Of a stretch of DNA of 64,000 nucleotides, positions 664 through 58,820 are shown one piece after another. The DNA lies in contig CAIMKZ010000077.1 of the NCBI GenBank assembly GCA_903842065.1, positions 1-64,000 on the forward strand, written 5' to 3'. This stretch comes from an uncultured Acidobacteriaceae bacterium (lineage in GTDB: Bacteria; Acidobacteriota; Terriglobia; Terriglobales; Acidobacteriaceae). A model generated the notes under the pieces. That model was given only the letters and a program-made list of their open reading frames with translations. It searched no databases and was not told the DNA's origin. Position 1 is the stretch's first letter. Each line of letters starts with the position of its first letter. The translations under genes and the position numbers were made by a program.

Positions 664-1503
664 ATGTCACAGCCTTGTCTTTATGCCGAATGTCGTCACA
701 TTCTCGCCAGCGGACGCAAATGCCGGGCAGCCGCACTGAAGGGCAGGGCCTTCTGCCTCCACCACATCCGCTCGCGAAATCTCGTCGAATCCAACCGCGC
801 CCGCAACCACTCCATCGCTCTGCCCCCGCTTGAAGACCGCGCCGCCATACAGATGTCCCTCGATGTTGTGCTTGCCGCCCTCGCCGCCGGAAAATTCAAC
901 CGCCGCACCGCCGCAACCTACGTCTACGCCATCAAGGCAGCCTCCGACAACCTCGCGCTGCTCGAGCAGCTCCCGCCTCCGGAACCCATCGAAATCTGCC
1001 GCGACGAGCGAGGCGACATCCTCGCCGCCGAACCACCCTCCCCCGAAATACCCTCTGTTGGTGCCCCCGGTCTCGATTTTGAGACCGGGGAAGTCACCAA
1101 CCCAACCCAATCCTCTATTCACCAACCACCAAATCTGGGTGCCCCAGGTCCCTCGCATTCCGCTAACACCGCTAACACCGCTAACACCGACCTCCGCAAC
1201 TCCTGCGCATCGATGGAGCACGATCCCGAGCCTCCGATCCCGCCCACCAGATCCGAGCTGCGCGAAAAGCGCCGTCAGATCGAGCAACACCTCAGGCAGA
1301 ACCGCGAGTCCCTGCGCTATTGGAAAACCGTCCCGCTCTCCGAGCTCTCCGAAGGCGAAGATCCGCAGGTCGTGATCAACTTCATTCAGGAATCGATCGG
1401 CAAACTCCAGACCAACCTCGACGAAATCGATCGTCTCGAAAAACAGGACCCCGAACCCGACCCACCCCTCGACCCCGACCCGCACCTCAACCCGCCACTC
1501 TGA
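664..1503 (+). CDS. Hypothetical protein with Cys/His-rich N-terminus, carrying inserted repeats
   Basis: This 279-aa protein starts at an ATG about 10 nt after a gtaggag sequence that can act as ribosome binding site. Residues 5-36 contain a spaced Cys/His set (CLYAECRH, then CRAA and FCLHH) suggestive of a small metal-binding knuckle. Residues 60-100 look helical, and residues 195-260 are charged and probably coiled coil. Between them, residues about 133-145 and 158-173 are translated copies of the palindromic repeat family, the second with a SANTANTANT stretch from three 9-bp repeats. The C-terminal end is a Pro/Asp-rich tail. Function is unknown. The repeats sit in the region least likely to be structured. 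Confidence 0.6.
   Translation: MSQPCLYAECRHILASGRKCRAAALKGRAFCLHHIRSRNLVESNRARNHSIALPPLEDRAAIQMSLDVVLAALAAGKFNRRTAATYVYAIKAASDNLALLEQLPPPEPIEICRDERGDILAAEPPSPEIPSVGAPGLDFETGEVTNPTQSSIHQPPNLGAPGPSHSANTANTANTDLRNSCASMEHDPEPPIPPTRSELREKRRQIEQHLRQNRESLRYWKTVPLSELSEGEDPQVVINFIQESIGKLQTNLDEIDRLEKQDPEPDPPLDPDPHLNPPL
1060..1093 (+). repeat. Palindromic repeat inside a coding region
   Basis: The arms ccccggtctc and gagaccgggg surround a gatttt-type centre. This is a variant of the element seen at 71-106 in which compensating changes keep the stem. It is read in frame as VGAPGLDFETGEV within the protein encoded at 664-1503. Confidence 0.85.
1137..1190 (+). repeat. Palindromic repeat half with three 9-bp repeats inside a coding region
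   Basis: The sequence begins gggtgccccaggtccctcgc, like the intergenic copy at 32518. It then runs into three copies of cgctaacac (1161-1187), followed by gacct, which can pair with the left arm. The frame stays open and yields alternating SANTANTANT residues. The same nonamer type forms arrays at 63601-63810. Confidence 0.75.
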
Positions 1504-1518
1504 ACCCACCACAACTCC

Positions 1519-1641
1519 GGGTGCCCCAGGTCTGGATTTTCAGACCTGGGAAAAATCAACGCTCGACCCGCCACTCTCAACCCACTACTGAAAATTGGGT
1601 GCCCCCGGTCCCTCGTCCGCCGCGGCGGAGGGACCGGGGAA
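1519..1641. repeat. Two intergenic copies of the palindromic element upstream of gatB
   Basis: The copy at 1519-1554 matches the tandem copies at the window start. The copy at 1597-1641 is a variant with a longer stem (ccccggtccctc paired with gagggaccgggg around a GC-rich centre). Both begin gggtgcccc. They fill most of the space between the stop codon at 1503 and the gatB start, so the gatB promoter must lie at or after about 1642. Confidence 0.85.
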
Positions 1642-1692
1642 TGCTCGCCCCTCGGGGACGCGGTGCATGCCGAAAACCGCTAAAATCAATTC

Positions 1693-3210
<1,518 letters not shown>

Positions 3211-3230
3211 AAATCTGAATTGCGAATAGA

Positions 3231-3262
3231 CGACGAGGCCGCTCAATAGAGCGGCCTCGTCG
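3231..3262. terminator. Bidirectional hairpin between gatB and the rhomboid-like gene
   Basis: A perfect 14-bp stem (cgacgaggccgctc / gagcggcctcgtcg) with loop aata lies between two converging genes. There is no long T tract, so efficiency as an intrinsic terminator is uncertain. Confidence 0.7.
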
Positions 3263-3282
3263 TATCCTGGTCCCTGCTTTTA

Positions 3283-4098
3283 TCAGTTCCACCGCTTGGG
3301 GTCGTCGTGTTCGTCGTGGATGACACGGCCCTGACCGTCGAAGTGCACGGTGCGGCCGTGCTGCTTCATGTAGACCTCGAACTTCTTTGCGGCCTTGCGG
3401 CGCTTGCGGCGGTAATAGTTATTGCGCAGGCCGAACCACCACTCGCTCAGGGCAAAGCCCAGGCCGCGTCGGGGAGCGCGGCGGACGAAGATGAGGCCGG
3501 CGGCCGCTCCGCCGAGCTGGGCGAAGGCGTACTGCTTCTGCGGCCCGAAGAGCATGGCGATGGCGACCAGGCCGTAGATGATGGCCAGATAGCGAGCCTT
3601 GATGCCGATGATGAACATGAGCAGAAACTCGGTGTCGCCGTAGAGAACGCCGATGGCTGTAAGCAATCCGAAGATGCCGCCGAAGCAGCCGTAGATCGGG
3701 ATTGCGGCGAGCGAGAAGTGCAGCGTACCGGAGACGAGATAGATCACCAGAGCGGCGGCGACCGTGCCGAGCACGGATACGATGTAGAGCGACCGGATCC
3801 AGTTGGCGTTGTGGTAGCTCTCAAGGAATCCGGCGAGGAACCAGAGCGAGAGCATTTCGAAGAGCGTGTTCGTGATGCCGGTATGCACCAGACTGTAGGT
3901 CAGCGGCTGCCAGATGAGGCCGTGAAGAAATGCACCCGGCTGGTAGGCGAGCAGTGCGGCGAACGAGTTTGCCGAATCTGGTGAGACCAGGCCGAAGAGC
4001 AGCAGCAGGAAGAAGGCGCACAGGTTGACGAGCACCAACTGGCGCGTTGCGCCGCTGAAGCCGGGGAAAGCGAACGGGCTGGAGCCGAGTCTCCGCAT
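3283..4098 (-). CDS. Rhomboid-family membrane protein, probably catalytically inactive
   Basis: This is a 271-aa polytopic membrane protein with about six hydrophobic segments between residues 18 and 205 and a basic C-terminal tail. The rhomboid fold is indicated by WQPLTYSLVH (63-72), by GCFGGIFGLL from residue 137 where active enzymes have GxSGxxxG, and by AQLGGAAAG (193-201) where they have AHLGG. The nucleophile Ser is replaced by Phe139 and the catalytic His by Gln194. It is therefore more likely a chaperone-like pseudoprotease than an intramembrane protease. It converges with gatB and is transcribed away from the LysW-like gene. Confidence 0.8.
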   Translation of the reverse strand: MRRLGSSPFAFPGFSGATRQLVLVNLCAFFLLLLFGLVSPDSANSFAALLAYQPGAFLHGLIWQPLTYSLVHTGITNTLFEMLSLWFLAGFLESYHNANWIRSLYIVSVLGTVAAALVIYLVSGTLHFSLAAIPIYGCFGGIFGLLTAIGVLYGDTEFLLMFIIGIKARYLAIIYGLVAIAMLFGPQKQYAFAQLGGAAAGLIFVRRAPRRGLGFALSEWWFGLRNNYYRRKRRKAAKKFEVYMKQHGRTVHFDGQGRVIHDEHDDPKRWN

Positions 4099-4296
4099 GG
4101 TACTTCAAAGGTAACCGTTCCGGCGCTGCAATGTCATGAAAGGCACAAGCCGAAGCAGGCCTTGACCTAGGGGCCGGTTGTCCCTAACACTATAGCGGGA
4201 CCGGACTCCGCAGAGCCGAATCCTGCCGCCGAGTGAGGCGGAGCAGTAAACTAAGCATTCATCCTGTATCCCGTGTTCGATTTGAAGGAGGTTATT

Positions 4297-4494
4297 ATGC
4301 CGATCTGTCCTGAATGCGAGAACCCACTCGATTTCGATGTTGACGAAGTGGAAGAAGGCGATGTTGTCGCCTGCGAGGAGTGCGGAACCGAGTTCGAAGT
4401 GGTTGGGATCGATCCGCTCGAACTGTCCAAGGCCGATGACGATCTGGACGACGAGGACGATGAAGTTTTCGACGAGGACGAGGAGGAAGAGTGA
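4297..4494 (+). CDS. LysW-like zinc-ribbon carrier protein
   Basis: This small acidic protein (65 aa) opens with MPICPECENPLDFD, which matches LysW, the amino-group carrier protein of the alpha-aminoadipate lysine route. It carries a CPEC...CEEC zinc ribbon (Cys4, 7, 28, 31 approximately) and a long Asp/Glu tail. The start is fixed by an excellent gaaggagg site 5 nt upstream. Unlike classical LysW it ends in a run of Glu instead of the conserved Asp-Trp-Gly-Glu tail. The genome also has the diaminopimelate lysine genes (30-34 kb) and argJ, so its client is unclear. The stop codon overlaps the next start by 4 nt. Confidence 0.8.
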   Translation: MPICPECENPLDFDVDEVEEGDVVACEECGTEFEVVGIDPLELSKADDDLDDEDDEVFDEDEEEE

Positions 4495-4859
4495 GAGTCC
4501 GAATATTGAAATTCGCGGTCAGTTCCGCACTGCTGCTGGGTCTGGCGATTGCCTGCTACAACAGCCTGAGCGGCAGTGTGGCCGTAGCACAGAACCTGGG
4601 AGACCGCACCATATCCGGCGCTGTGCTGGGGTCCGACTCGCAGCCTGTGGTCGGCGCCACGGTGTTTCTACAGAGCGTCAAGACCAAGTCGATCCGCAGC
4701 TTCACCACGGTTGAAAAGGGCCACTACCGCTTCACTCAGGTGAAGAAGTCAGAGGACTACGACCTGTGGGCGCAGAAGGACGGCAAAAAGAGCCCGGTTA
4801 AGCCGATCAGCTCCTGGGACTCGCGCAATGACTTTATCGCCGACCTGAAGCTGAAATAA
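4491..4859 (+). CDS. Secreted carboxypeptidase-regulatory-like domain protein
   Basis: This 122-aa protein begins at a GTG that overlaps the LysW-like stop codon (GTGA), so translation is probably coupled. Residues 1-33 form a signal peptide ending in AVAQ. The rest is one beta-sandwich domain of the carboxypeptidase D regulatory type (ISGAVLGSDSQPVVGATVFLQ, then YRFTQV), the same fold found at the N-terminus of the TonB receptor at 41.3 kb. It is likely periplasmic. Coupling of a cytoplasmic carrier and a secreted sandwich domain is unexplained. Confidence 0.75.
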   Translation: MRVRILKFAVSSALLLGLAIACYNSLSGSVAVAQNLGDRTISGAVLGSDSQPVVGATVFLQSVKTKSIRSFTTVEKGHYRFTQVKKSEDYDLWAQKDGKKSPVKPISSWDSRNDFIADLKLK

Positions 4860-4862
4860 GGC

Positions 4863-4897
4863 AGGGACTAAGGGACCAGGGACAGGGAACAGGGACG
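4863..4897. repeat. Degenerate heptad repeat of the agggaac type
   Basis: About five consecutive units resembling agggact, agggacc, agggac, agggaac and agggacg lie directly after a stop codon. The same type of 7-bp repeat occurs at 49985-50020 and 58293-58326. Confidence 0.7.
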
Positions 4898-4989
4898 GCC
4901 GCGATCCATTTGTAGCGCCAGTCTCCCGACCCGCACTGGTATTTCTTCACCGGCCAGAACAGCCCCGATCCGATAAAATCGTCTTTGTC

Positions 4990-5979
4990 ATGAGCCAGAA
5001 AATCGCATTCCTCTTTCCGGGGCAGGGTTCGCAGGCCGTAGGCATGGGCCGCGAACTAGCCGAGAAGTTTCCCGTAGCCCAGCAGACCTTCGACGAGGCA
5101 GACGCCGCGCTCGGGTTCTCGCTCTCGAAGCTCTGTTTCGAAGGGCCTGAAGATCAGCTTCGCCTGACCGAAAACACCCAGCCGGCCATTATGACCGTGA
5201 GTGTAGCCGCCGCCCGCGTGCTGGCCGAACTGGGCATTACGCCCTCGATCGCCGCCGGACACTCGCTCGGCGAGTGGTCCGCGCACGTTGTCGCCGGGAC
5301 GATGAGCTTCGCCGACGGCGTCCGCTCCGTCAAGGCCCGTGGAAAGGCCATGCAGCTCGCCGTGCCTCCGGGGCAGGGTGCGATGGCCGCAATTCTTCAG
5401 CTTGACGCAGCCCTGGTAGCCGAGGCCTGTGCAGAAGCCGCCAGCGAGACCGGCCTTGTCGTCGAAGCCGCCAACATCAACTCCGCAGGCCAGGTTGTTA
5501 TCTCCGGCGCGGCGGCAGCGGTTGAGAAGGCCTCTGCCATCTGCAAGGCCAAGGGCGCTCGCCGCGCCGTGCCGCTGCCCGTAAGCGCGCCCTTCCATTG
5601 CGCGCTCATGCAGCCCGCACAGGTTGAGGTGGCCCGCGTACTCACCGCGCTCTCGCTCAACGATCCCAAGATTCCCGTCGTCGCCAACGTCAGCGGTGGC
5701 ATTGTTACAACCGCCGCCGACGCGAAAGACGTTCTCACCCGCCAGGTGACCGGTGCAGTCCGCTGGATCGACTGCGAGCAGGCGCTCAAGAACGGGGTCC
5801 CCGCGGACGGGTCTTCGTCCGTGGGGTGTAAGAACGCTGCGCCCGATGTTTATGTAGAAGTCGGCCCCGGCAAGGTCCTCTGCGGCCTGCTCAAGCAGTT
5901 CGACAGCGAGCTCAAGTCGCTGAACGTGGAAAACATCGCGAGCCTTGAAGCCGCGCTGTCGGAACTGAAGGGCGCATAG
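4990..5979 (+). CDS. fabD: Malonyl CoA-acyl carrier protein transacylase
   Basis: FabD transfers malonyl groups from CoA to acyl carrier protein, feeding fatty-acid synthesis in the cytoplasm. The 329-aa sequence shows FLFPGQGSQAVGMG at the N-terminus, the nucleophile motif GHSLGEWSA (Ser about 94), the catalytic His in SAPFHCALM, and the C-terminal EVGPGKVLCGLLK. It is slightly longer than usual because residues about 268-281 (GVPADGSSSVGC region) come from an inserted palindromic repeat. No Shine-Dalgarno sequence is obvious, but a TAAAAT box lies 10 nt upstream of the ATG. No other fab genes are adjacent. Confidence 0.95.
   Translation: MSQKIAFLFPGQGSQAVGMGRELAEKFPVAQQTFDEADAALGFSLSKLCFEGPEDQLRLTENTQPAIMTVSVAAARVLAELGITPSIAAGHSLGEWSAHVVAGTMSFADGVRSVKARGKAMQLAVPPGQGAMAAILQLDAALVAEACAEAASETGLVVEAANINSAGQVVISGAAAAVEKASAICKAKGARRAVPLPVSAPFHCALMQPAQVEVARVLTALSLNDPKIPVVANVSGGIVTTAADAKDVLTRQVTGAVRWIDCEQALKNGVPADGSSSVGCKNAAPDVYVEVGPGKVLCGLLKQFDSELKSLNVENIASLEAALSELKGA
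5791..5829 (+). repeat. Palindromic element inserted in frame in fabD
   Basis: The stem ccccgcggac (5799-5808) with gtccgtgggg (5817-5826), including one G-U type pair, surrounds the loop gggtcttc. It is translated as GVPADGSSSVGC. Stem position, loop sequence and reading frame match the gatB copy at 2068-2109. Confidence 0.85.
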
Positions 5980-5991
5980 CCCGAAGATAAT

Positions 5992-6027
5992 AAGGGCCTC
6001 TCATCCCAGTGGGAATGAGAGGCCCTT
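5992..6027. terminator. Bidirectional terminator between fabD and ptrB
   Basis: A 16-bp stem (aagggcctctcat...atgagaggccctt) with one bulged T and a short loop lies between converging genes. The A- and T-flanked ends suit termination in both directions. Confidence 0.85.
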
Positions 6028-6045
6028 CGTGTATCTGGCCTGTCT

Positions 6046-8127
6046 TTAGCGAATCAGTCCAAGTTCCCGCAGCAAAAACGCATAGTCCTGCGCAATCTCT
6101 TTCAGGTAGTCGTACCTTCCGCTCGCTCCGCCGTGTCCGGCCTGCATGTTCGTCACCAGCAGCAGCGGGTTTTCGTCTGTCTTGAGCGTCCTCAACTTTG
6201 CCACATACTTCGCGGGCTCCCAGTACATCACCTGGCTGTCGTTTAACGAAGTTTTGACCAACATTGAGGGGTACTGCCCCTCGCAGAGGTTTTCATAAGG
6301 CGAGTAGCTCAGCATGTAGTCGAAGTAATCCGGATAGTTCGGGTTGCCCCACTCTTCGTACTCGGGCACGGTCAACGGCAGCGTCTCGTCCAGCATGGTG
6401 TTTATCACGTCCACAAACGGCACGTGCGAGAGAACCGCGCGGAACAGCTCGGGCCGCATGTTCACGACCGCGCCCATCAGCAGGCCGCCGGCTGAACCGC
6501 CTTCAATCGCCACGCGCTTTGGGTCACCGTAGCCATTCGCCGTCAGGTGCTCCACGCAGGCGATGAAGTCGGAGAAGGTGTTGCGCTTCACCATCATCTT
6601 GCCGGCGTCGTGCCAGGTTTGGCCCAGGTCGCCGCCGCCGCGGATGTGCGCGAAAGCCATGACCACGCCCCGGTCGAGCAGGCTCAGACGGTTCGAGCTG
6701 AAGCTGACCGGCAGCGCGAACCCATACGATCCGTAGCCGTAGACGTGGATTGGGTTCGACTTCGTGCGGATATCCTTTCGGTAGACGATCGAGATCGGCA
6801 CCTCGACTCCGTCCGGCGCGGTGGCACGAATGCGCTCGCTTGCGTAGAGCGCGCGATCGAAGCCGCCGGGAATCTCCTGCTGCTTGAGCAGTGCGGAAGC
6901 GCCTGAGTTCACGTCGTACTCGTACACCGAGGCCGGCGAGACCAGCGACTGGTAGCTGTAGCGGAAGGTCGTCGTCTCGAAGATGCGGTTCACGTGCGGA
7001 TGGGCGCTGTAGGCAGGCTCAGGAAAGGCGATCTCGCCCGCTCGAACGGCCTCGGGACCGTTGCCGGCAAACTTCCACAGGCGCAGCCTGGGCAGTCCGT
7101 CCTCTCGCTCGCAGGCGATGAAGAAATCGGCAAACAGGTCGGCGTCTTCAAGCATCACGGCGTCGCGATGGGGGATCAACTCCGTCCAGTTTTCATGGCC
7201 GGGATGATCGGCCGGCGCTGTTGCCAGCCGGAAGTTTCGCCCGCTGTCGTTGGTGCGGATGAACCAGTGCCCCTTGCGGTGATCGACCGAGTACTCGTGA
7301 TCCACTTTGCGCGGGGCGATCACTGCAAATTCTCCTGCCGGATTATCTGCCGCGAGAAACCGCACCTCGGTCGTCGTGTGGCTTCCGGATTCGAGCAGAA
7401 GATATTTGCCGTCGCGCGTTCGGCCTACGCCGATGTTGAAGCTCTCATCGTCGTCCTGATAAACGAGCGCGTCGGCCGAGTGCTCCGTGCCCAGCGCGTG
7501 CCGGTAAAGCTGGAACTGCCGCTTCTGCTGCTCGTCCTCGACCGTGTAGAAGAGCGTGCGGTTGTCCGCCGCCCAGCAGATCGAACCCACGCGCTCGACC
7601 TCGCCCGCGAGCGTCTCGCCCGTTTCCAGATTCTTGACGCGCAGCGTGTACTGGCGGAAGCCGGTGGTGTCGGTGGTGTAGGCGAGCCAGCGTCCGTCGT
7701 CCGTAATGTCCGTGTCGCCGATGGCGAAAAAGGCCTGCCCCTCGGCCAGTTTGTTGCCGTCGAGGATTACCGCTTCCGCGGCCTCAGGTACTGGACCGGC
7801 TTCGGTCCCGGATTTACGGCAGTAGATCGCATACTGCAACCCCTCCTCGGTACGCGTCGAGTACCAGTAGTTGCCGTCGCGATAGGGAACCGAGACGTCG
7901 GTTTGCTTGATGTGGCTGAGCATCTCGTCGTAAAGCTCGGCGCGCAGCCCTTGGAGCGGAGCCATCTGGGCCTCGGCGTAAGCGTTCTCGGCTTCGAGGT
8001 AAGCGATGGTCTCAGGGTTCTCTTTTCCGCGCAGCCAGGCGTAATCGTCGGTGAGCGTGACGCCGTGGATGGTGTTGTCGGTCGGGTGCCGGGGCGCGGT
8101 CGGAGGGGAGGGAAGCGATTTGCTCAT
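6046..8127 (-). CDS. ptrB: Oligopeptidase B (S9 family serine peptidase)
   Basis: Oligopeptidase B cleaves short peptides after basic residues in the cytoplasm. From the chosen ATG (MSKSLPSPP) the protein has 693 aa, normal for the family. The N-terminal beta-propeller spans roughly residues 70-400, and the C-terminal alpha/beta-hydrolase carries the nucleophile motif GGSAGGLLMGAV. It is followed by the oligopeptidase-B-type stretch PFVDVINTMLDETLPL and the catalytic His near NMQAGHGG. The frame is open further upstream but would then overlap the divergent gene at 8207; a start at 8136 is also possible. Confidence 0.92.
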   Translation of the reverse strand: MSKSLPSPPTAPRHPTDNTIHGVTLTDDYAWLRGKENPETIAYLEAENAYAEAQMAPLQGLRAELYDEMLSHIKQTDVSVPYRDGNYWYSTRTEEGLQYAIYCRKSGTEAGPVPEAAEAVILDGNKLAEGQAFFAIGDTDITDDGRWLAYTTDTTGFRQYTLRVKNLETGETLAGEVERVGSICWAADNRTLFYTVEDEQQKRQFQLYRHALGTEHSADALVYQDDDESFNIGVGRTRDGKYLLLESGSHTTTEVRFLAADNPAGEFAVIAPRKVDHEYSVDHRKGHWFIRTNDSGRNFRLATAPADHPGHENWTELIPHRDAVMLEDADLFADFFIACEREDGLPRLRLWKFAGNGPEAVRAGEIAFPEPAYSAHPHVNRIFETTTFRYSYQSLVSPASVYEYDVNSGASALLKQQEIPGGFDRALYASERIRATAPDGVEVPISIVYRKDIRTKSNPIHVYGYGSYGFALPVSFSSNRLSLLDRGVVMAFAHIRGGGDLGQTWHDAGKMMVKRNTFSDFIACVEHLTANGYGDPKRVAIEGGSAGGLLMGAVVNMRPELFRAVLSHVPFVDVINTMLDETLPLTVPEYEEWGNPNYPDYFDYMLSYSPYENLCEGQYPSMLVKTSLNDSQVMYWEPAKYVAKLRTLKTDENPLLLVTNMQAGHGGASGRYDYLKEIAQDYAFLLRELGLIR

Positions 8128-9020: not shown

Positions 9021-9163
9021 AGCTTCCAGCTGTTAGCTTCTAGCTCTTAGCTGGCACCGTAACGAGTTTTGCTATGGTGGATATCCCCAAAAATTAGTGC
9101 ATTGAGGCAAAAGAACATTCGCGTACTGGAGCTAGAGGCTAGGAGCTAGAAGCTAGCAGCTGG
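9021..9163. repeat. Inverted pair of tagaagc-type heptad arrays between TPM and lemA genes
   Basis: Positions 9021-9054 hold repeats read as agcttc/tagctc, and 9127-9163 hold the reverse complement (gagctagaggctaggagc...). The arms match at nearly all of about 29 positions and are separated by about 72 bp, so the whole could form a long hairpin or act as a small non-autonomous element. Similar arrays lie at 32580 and 58721-58820. Confidence 0.8.
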
Positions 9164-32579: not shown

Positions 32580-32628
32580 CTAGCTAGAAGCTAGAAGCTA
32601 GAAGCTAACAGCTAACAGCTAGGAGCTT
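32580..32628 (+). repeat. Heptad array (tagaagc/taacagc) that forms the dapB ribosome-binding site
   Basis: Units tagaagc x3, taacagc x2 and taggagc lie in tandem. The last unit supplies aggagc, which sits 6-7 nt before the dapB ATG at 32632 and is the only plausible Shine-Dalgarno sequence. Related arrays are at 9021-9163 and 58721-58820. Confidence 0.85.
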
Positions 32629-50478: not shown

Positions 50479-50502
50479 GTAGCGGGAGTAAAATCGTGCC
50501 AA

Positions 50503-50544
50503 CCCACCCTAATCGCAAAGAGCGCGTTTAGGATGGGGCACCCT
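50503..50544. repeat. cccaccc-type palindromic repeat
   Basis: cccaccctaa...gcaaagagcgcgtt...ggatggggcaccc is a near match to 53988-54029. The two copies flank the accessory block containing the AbiGi-like and ABC genes. Confidence 0.8.
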
Positions 50545-50655
50545 CAGTAGTGATACAACGGCGTCCAGGCAGGGTTGGGTGGGCCACCCGCCAGCCGCCC
50601 ACCCGCCCATGTCCAGAGTAAAATTTACACAAGACCAATAGTAGAGGTGTCTCTC

Positions 50656-53888: not shown

Positions 53889-53987
53889 CTGTGTTCCTGT
53901 AAGACGGTCGCGGCGAAGGAGTAGTCTCCCTCGCCGCGTGTTGTTCATTCAATACATATCCGGCCCGAAAGGATGAGTTCTTGCTTT

Positions 53988-54029
53988 CCCACCCAAACCG
54001 CAAAGAGCGCGGTTTGGATGGGGCACCCT
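53988..54029. repeat. cccaccc-type palindromic repeat between the ABC operon and gyrB
   Basis: cccacccaaaccgc and gcggtttggatgggg pair around caaagagc. It resembles the copies at 34495 and 50503. It is downstream of gyrB and upstream of the ABC operon, both on the minus strand. Confidence 0.8.
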
Positions 54030-54073
54030 AAGTCGTACTCTTTCGGGTCGGATCAATAAGTTCGGCTCGCGCC

Positions 54074-58720: not shown

Positions 58721-58820
58721 CAGCTTTTAGCTGCTAGCTTCTAGCTTGTTCTGTTCCAGCCTTCGCAGCTTGCTCCACTTCAAAATAGCTAGGAGCTAGA
58801 AGCTAGAGGCTAAAAGCTGG
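58721..58820. repeat. Inverted heptad arrays between rplU and rpmA
   Basis: Left arm 58721-58747 (cagcttttagctgctagcttctagct) and right arm 58784-58820 (aatagctaggagctagaagctagaggctaaaagctgg) are reverse complements over most of their length, separated by 36 bp. It occupies almost all of the intergenic space between the two ribosomal genes, so any rpmA leader includes it. Confidence 0.8.

Follow-up and report, generated by a model that had tools for sequence, protein, structure and literature searches.

The papers cited here treat frequent palindromic elements in frame within protein genes mainly in connection with Rickettsia, whose lineage is intracellular. These Rickettsia palindromic elements (RPE) are dispersed in conserved genes as well as between genes, and the host proteins stay intact (PMC2229807, PMC10969869, PMC3733652). 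Published sizes are 105-146 bp or about 150 bp, and one table enters their target duplication as '?' (PMC2229807). REP and REPIN sequences with their RAYT (TnpA-REP) are dispersed bulged palindromes of 20-40 bp, lying mostly outside clear genes, and intragenic REPs have been reported (PMC3733652). The same paper treats CGTC-tagged REPs (including RPE-4 and RPE-6) as short palindromes with intragenic copies and no known dedicated transposase; one end bears an unpaired CGTC, and they are mostly found as head-to-head dimers (PMC3733652). Bacterial MITEs such as RUP, Correia/NEMIS and ERIC are non-autonomous palindromes of about 100-200 bp with target duplications, and some yield in-frame fusions (PMC2229807).

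The element reported here was found in soil bacteria, and it sits in very conserved genes. Likened by description and size, it resembles RPE as a dispersed palindrome present between genes and also in frame in conserved protein genes (23 of 60 proteins, see below) that remain intact, but it differs in its 38 bases, its 42-base gain, its short flanking repeat, its other sequence frame and its free-living host. With REPs it shares a bulged palindrome within 20-40 bp in many copies (38 bases, 1 to 108 copies per genome of the genus), dispersed mostly outside clear genes. However, it has a GGGGT head inside the outer stem instead of GTAG, which was not seen 5' of the palindrome in the consensus of 60 copies, and it was near only 1 of the 40 Y1 loci examined, with short flanking repeats and direct tandem units mostly of 42 bases. 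Like the CGTC-tagged REPs it is short and palindromic, has intragenic copies and has no known dedicated transposase, but its ends pair mutually (NC...GN'), CGTC-like letters are located only at the loop-stem border, and its arrays run head-to-tail. MITEs are likewise non-autonomous and palindromic, and the short flanking repeat may correspond to their target duplications. The arms of the present element form an inverted repeat, and 38 bases are far below the MITE size; no related insertion sequence was found in a search that covered Y1 genes. By analogy, the element appears to work like RPE, in a shorter and more regular form and in another host, and would count as a REP only if the term is used loosely for any short palindrome that is dispersed. 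We found no description of it in the open-access papers searched, and one may be in print in subscription papers. Possible further parallels are the small dispersed repeats of cyanobacteria, the GC clusters of yeast mitochondria and the double-hairpin elements of Allomyces.

The window, which is the whole stretch of 64,000 nucleotides analysed here, contained two copies on the forward strand, both located by pattern match. The first was found at 2072..2109 (+, 38 bases, read as ...T GAPGDRSSSPGW) within gatB (1693..3210, +), an ORF encoding subunit B of Asp/Glu-tRNA amidotransferase (505 aa) with a Pfam GatB_N match across the insert plus GatB_Yqey. The second was found at 5792..5829 (+, 38 bases, read as ...N GVPADGSSSVGC) within fabD (4990..5979, +), an ORF encoding a malonyl-CoA:ACP transacylase of 329 aa, identified through Pfam Acyl_transf_1 and a structure model. 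In the window a degenerate 35-base pattern had just two exact matches, 2074-2108 and 5794-5828, with 0 matches expected from 100 shuffles. Against covariance model R1 (filters off) the gatB copy scored 63.4 bits (E 1.9e-15) and the fabD copy 61.2 bits (E 8.2e-15). The GatB copy translates as KTGAPGDRSSSPGWK and the FabD copy as KNGVPADGSSSVGCK, in an identical frame, and both host genes are intact. The first-pass annotation had claimed a second in-frame copy in fabD, in the same frame as that of gatB, and both copies lie where it placed them; the site stands, while the limits and the loop, quoted as gtcttc, are refined to a unit at 5792-5829 with a slightly longer loop (AGGTCTTC or GGGTCTTC across the two copies) and an insertion of 42 bases. 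We consider it probable that the two inserts are copies of a small non-autonomous mobile DNA hairpin of the Acidobacteriaceae that is moved in trans by an enzyme; the family name was taken from the record titles of relatives found with FabD.

The inserted length in fabD is 42 bases because AAGAAC occurs twice, upstream at 5788..5793 (+) and downstream at 5830..5835 (+), around the structured unit of 38 bases. Judged from these letters, AAGA (the first 4 bases of 5788..5793) would be the core duplication, and the last 2, AC, would pair with the GT end of the element. The gatB copy is flanked by AAGA at 2068..2071 (+) and AAAC at 2110..2113 (+), in which 2 of 4 bases match, so the repeat is kept in part only.

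The element is an imperfect palindrome forming a hairpin of 38 bases, NC-GGGGT-CCCCNNNGAC-AGGTCTTC-GTCNNNGGGG-T-GN'. The core obtained from 194 copies is GGGGTCCCC-NNN-GAC-AGGTCTTC-GTC-NNN-GGGG-TG(G/A), preceded by C in 90%, and the consensus of 60 copies reads CCGGGGTCCCC...GGGGTGG. Copies with less than 60 bases to the upstream or less than 110 to the downstream end of their locus were excluded from the copy set, and so were identical contexts. Base -1 is C in 24 of the 27 copies where base 42 is not C, and this C was therefore assigned to the element.

The stems of the two window copies differ by paired changes, GGCGAC/GTCGCC vs GCGGAC/GTCCGT, the latter with one G-T pair. Across 60 distinct copies the 12-pair structure was paired in 96.0% of stem cells vs 83.5% in shuffles, and the stem covariation score was 0.382 vs 0.144, a value reached by 0 of 500 shuffles; the signal was lost once the partners were slid. 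Covariation extends to the outermost pair (CG 31, UA 14, AU 3, UG 3, GC 1, other 8). The stem differences had been read earlier as compensating changes, and these figures bear this out; such changes may come from selection on the hairpin or from its mode of copying, and covariation cannot separate the two. Folded alone as RNA, the fabD copy gave the 12-pair hairpin (z -2.11, 4 of 200 shuffles as good), and the gatB copy gave a different fold as its minimum (z -0.99, 30 of 200 shuffles as good); the hairpin is therefore better supported by covariation among copies than by energy. A known Rfam RNA was rejected as a candidate, since none of the six matches up to E 5 at 1500-6500 of the window overlaps the fabD or the gatB copy.

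Through comparison of FabD between sister genomes, as proposed in the first-pass annotation, we found the insert missing from all 29 same-genus orthologues fetched. It was also absent from the 45, out of 80 named loci, for which an alignment was printed, so the equal presence in distant FabD proteins that would speak against a recent insertion was not seen among the orthologues examined. Two of the 29 (L130 and L137) contain a single AAGAAC, read CTCAAGAACGC, and this genome contains CTCAAGAAC-element-AAGAAC-GC, indicating a gain of 42 bases (14 codons). A conserved feature of FabD was rejected, the insert being missing from the orthologues examined, and a longer FabD loop in another locus (L046) is not the hairpin element. 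The Pfam Acyl_transf_1 match stops before the insert, and at this place the orthologues carry the evidence.

The FabD model, built on 52 aligned sequences, has a mean pLDDT of 93.3. Residues 276-280, within the insert (269-282), are the sole segment of at least 3 residues below pLDDT 50. Its best structural match is Vibrio cholerae FabD (47% identity), with E. coli FabD 1mla fourth. The insert is thus predicted to form a floppy loop on an unchanged enzyme, and this low-confidence loop on an intact fold agrees with the earlier guess that it lies at the surface.

The GatB insert likewise comprises 14 residues. We fetched 30 GatB loci, counting the one of this genome, and eight of them contain the element. 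The copies fall at three points of a single loop. Site A is occupied in this genome, L156, L157 and L158 (where the copy has diverged), site B in L160 and L167, and site C in L165 and L179. In a GatB protein tree computed with the loop columns omitted, carriers and empty relatives were intermixed; the two site C carriers alone were sisters, and several nodes were weak. This distribution marks GatB as a hotspot and suggests about seven insertions in its loop, with losses or gene exchange as alternatives. The inserts are most likely tolerated passengers and not working parts of FabD or GatB. At the same place, the loop of one further gatB gene (L427, genome G032) is also longer; it holds a GC-rich palindrome that does not contain the core.

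The own genome contained 14 copies at up to 2 mismatches, with 0 matches to the reversed control pattern, and 18 copies at E up to 0.1 with the covariance model; a genome-wide lack of further copies, named earlier as evidence against the element, was accordingly not what we observed. All 36 genomes of the genus (this one plus 35 others sampled) carry from 1 to 108 copies each, and the 24 genomes outside the genus in the same 60-genome search carry none, the control pattern giving a single match across all 60. Within the family, a copy at up to 1 mismatch was present in 32 of 200 genomes, and these fall in 13 of 79 genera. A scan of the phylum matched 6 of 297 genomes, all six in the family, and 266 of 266 genomes outside the family gave no match. 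Pattern scans undercount, as three genomes (G416, G228 and G424) had 0 matches at 1 mismatch vs 37, 24 and 28 by covariance model. With that model, 21 of 151 genomes of the class matched, 19 in the family; the other two both belong to family f7, with one match each, and the one in G634, a hairpin with another loop inside a second copy, looks real. On these scans the element appears nearly absent beyond its family. The suggestion of the first-pass annotation that it had recently spread is in line with the copies in each of the 36 genus genomes and with three 42-base presence/absence differences between sisters, described below.

Sister hairpins with the frame GGGGT-CCCC...GGGG-TGG and other stems or loops were observed in G207, G145, G156 and G634 (L422-L426, L428 and L429). 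A tandem pair of this sister subfamily in G207 is spaced 39, and at L428 (G634, from another family of the class) one hairpin is nested in another. Seventeen uncultured viral contigs contain exact copies of the element, in 18 stretches altogether (L365-L382), and the copies at L373, L376, L379, L380 and L381 have identical flanks. Carriage on plasmid or phage records was rejected, as blastn of the 50-base fabD stretch gave no match among the plasmid records and none among the phage records searched.

For the duplication statistics the 194 copies were reduced to 158 by removing tandem copies and repeated flanks. Only a spacing of 42 bases gave a run of flank matches (-6 to -3 vs 37 to 40, z 3.9 to 6.6). 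At least 3 of 4 flank bases match in 54 of the 158 copies, vs 10.5 expected and a maximum of 21 in 2000 shuffles, and all 4 match in 21, vs 1.2 expected. Measured against the fixed-length target duplication of MITEs, 104 of the 158 are without a 3-of-4 flanking repeat, and the three sister comparisons show no clear duplication. After removal of a repeat-borne AGAT class, the signal persisted in 48 of 145 copies. Of the 42 bases, we assigned 38 to the element and 4 to the duplication, and regarded the longer match of fabD (6) as partly fortuitous. The target-site features which the earlier annotation suggested looking for are this short flanking repeat and the C before the GGGG head. Tandem units are arranged head-to-tail, mostly at a spacing of 42; in a few pairs the spacing is 41 or 43.

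In the sister genomes G424 and G228, three filled/empty sites differ by 42 bases, with flanks 93-98% identical; these are the three of six candidate sites that aligned cleanly at net 42 bases, and the other three, with larger differences, were set aside. None of the three gains has a clear duplication, all have an identical CGAA before the element, and all lie within one repeated sequence. These differences may not be primary insertions and could reflect gene conversion of a composite repeat. How such elements move can be tested directly with the pairs of filled and empty orthologues, the constant gain of 42 bases and the flanking repeats.

Copies interrupting larger palindromic repeats were observed in the own genome (L008, L011, L012, L013) and in relatives (L025, L235, L265, L306, L310), several at an identical place. 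Another copy of the own genome (L005, contig C106 near 31713) is located within another palindromic repeat, and the composite lies in an open frame with an ABC ATPase match.

Under the mobile-hairpin reading, an enzyme acting in trans would recognise the folded hairpin through its constant CCCC/GGGG stem and its asymmetric GGGGT/T internal loop. The target would be opened with a short stagger and repair would leave a 4-base duplication, adding 42 bases per insertion. Recognition or copying of the folded form is proposed because the stem is constant, the loop is asymmetric and covariation extends to the last pair, and staggered opening because of the short flanking repeats. No mobilising enzyme was found among the candidates examined, which were Y1 transposases, and mobilisation in trans is what we infer. 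Since 42 is a multiple of three and the encoded peptide is short, rich in Gly and Ser and tolerated in loops, genic insertions would survive. Selection would then leave copies in permissive loops, mostly in two frames, GVPxDRSSSxGW and HPxDEDLSxGTP.

Spread without a dedicated enzyme, through hairpin slippage or template switching and gene conversion between copies or larger palindromic repeats, seems to us rather unlikely, though it is the strongest competitor. Slippage readily makes tandem arrays of near-identical units, the three sister-genome differences fall in one repeated sequence, and eight copies (L011, L012, L013, L025, L235, L265, L306, L310) are placed within other palindromic repeats at the same place. 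However, single-copy genes (fabD, AlaRS, ferrochelatase) hold copies with unrelated flanks, and the flanking-repeat signal stands at one fixed spacing, still in 48 of 145 copies without the AGAT class.

A REP moved as single-stranded DNA by a REP-associated Y1 (HUH) transposase (RAYT) is improbable. The short, imperfect, internally bulged palindrome and its high copy number would suit it, Y1_Tnp matches occur in 35 of 36 genus genomes, and some REPs are likewise reported to be inserted in other palindromes (PMC3733652). But the GTAG head is absent and inverted pairs were not seen as a rule. A copy was located near only 1 of the 40 Y1 loci examined (39 distinct, 34 of them sampled from the 141 matches of the genus), so that Y1 genes flanked by copies were not found in this sample. 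Copy number was uncorrelated with Y1 number (rho 0.07, p 0.68, n=36), and one genome with 13 copies (G024, 73% complete) lacks any Y1 match; association with the Y1/RAYT genes sampled was rejected on these grounds. To our knowledge, short target duplications are not expected of Y1 (HUH) single-strand chemistry.

A structural or regulatory motif that is not mobile, kept or evolved independently at each place, would account for the covarying pairs and for GatB copies at one site in four lineages, but we hold it very improbable: one 38-base core is shared by unrelated genes and intergenic places, is missing from orthologues, is restricted to a lineage and is coded on either strand in several frames. 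Chance or an assembly artefact is hardly credible even for a draft genome in 106 contigs, given 0 matches expected in shuffles, 0 control-pattern matches in the own genome, and the occurrence of the element across many genomes that were assembled separately, some of them into one or a few contigs.

Inside a gene, the hairpin typically adds exactly 14 amino acids to the product without breaking it, even in the essential fabD and gatB. For the wider set of host proteins, 60 open frames through copies were chosen by codon usage and all were scanned against Pfam (58 loci plus the window genes gatB and fabD). Coding calls by codon usage alone were too noisy (165 of 194 'non', with f0 commonest in the remainder), and open frames plus Pfam were therefore used. 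The element lies within one Pfam domain match in 18 proteins and adjoins the break of a two-stretch match in 5, making the 23 of 60; in the other frames it is outside Pfam matches, as in FabD, or no family was found. Among the 23 are copies in alanyl-tRNA synthetase (L211), a class I tRNA synthetase (L334), a NuoG-type oxidoreductase (L279), RNase P protein (L218), ferrochelatase (L280) and D-Ala-D-Ala ligase (L277), and in the own genome in a peptidase M3 (L004) and the ABC ATPase (L005). Those in two RNase R-type RNB proteins (L021 and L245) probably go back to one ancestral insertion. Copies between domains were found in MutS2 (L316), FtsK (L208) and an EF-Tu-like GTPase with three tandem units (L327). 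In G004, a candidate frame was obtained in 17 of 48 fetched regions, and many copies gave none.

The frames of the 23 are f0 14, r1 4, r0 3, f1 2, f2 0 and r2 0. Under a null of our choice, in which insertion simply follows CCG sites in genes, f0 is expected in 6.3 of 23 (p 0.0008, or 0.0004 with RNase R counted once). Target preference (C-G) accounts for part of this bias, and the rest may reasonably be put down to selection on the peptide. The consensus with C...G ends has a stop codon in none of the six frames, and the T...A form of the element closes the GVP frame with TGA; counting flanking codons, a stop in the GVP frame is present in 40 of 194 copies.

It is possible, and we put it forward only tentatively, that the element is adapted to protein-coding DNA, with 38+4 = 42 held at a multiple of three (compare the spacing of 39 in the G207 sister pair), a stop-free consensus in six frames and hydrophilic-loop readings. 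If so, a selfish element of a free-living lineage would enter essential genes without breaking them and keep adding 14-residue loops. As a natural experiment, the copies can show which places in proteins accommodate a loop of this length.

Tandem 42-base units lie in open frames at L326, L327, L226 and L216, giving 14-residue protein repeats, and in the own genome one copy (L014) lies close to the 3' end of a frame for an IS110-type transposase. The window also contains other repeats. A palindromic family, CCCAGGTCTGGATTTTCAGACCTGGG, forms three tandem copies 76 bases apart at 1-216, with a fourth at 1525-1588. A 58-base palindromic repeat, CCCACCC...GGATGGGGCACCC, has copies at 50494-50551 and 53979-54036 that are 83% alike, and a GCTAGAAGCTAG-like unit repeats between genes at 9021-9161, 32581-32627 and 58722-58818.
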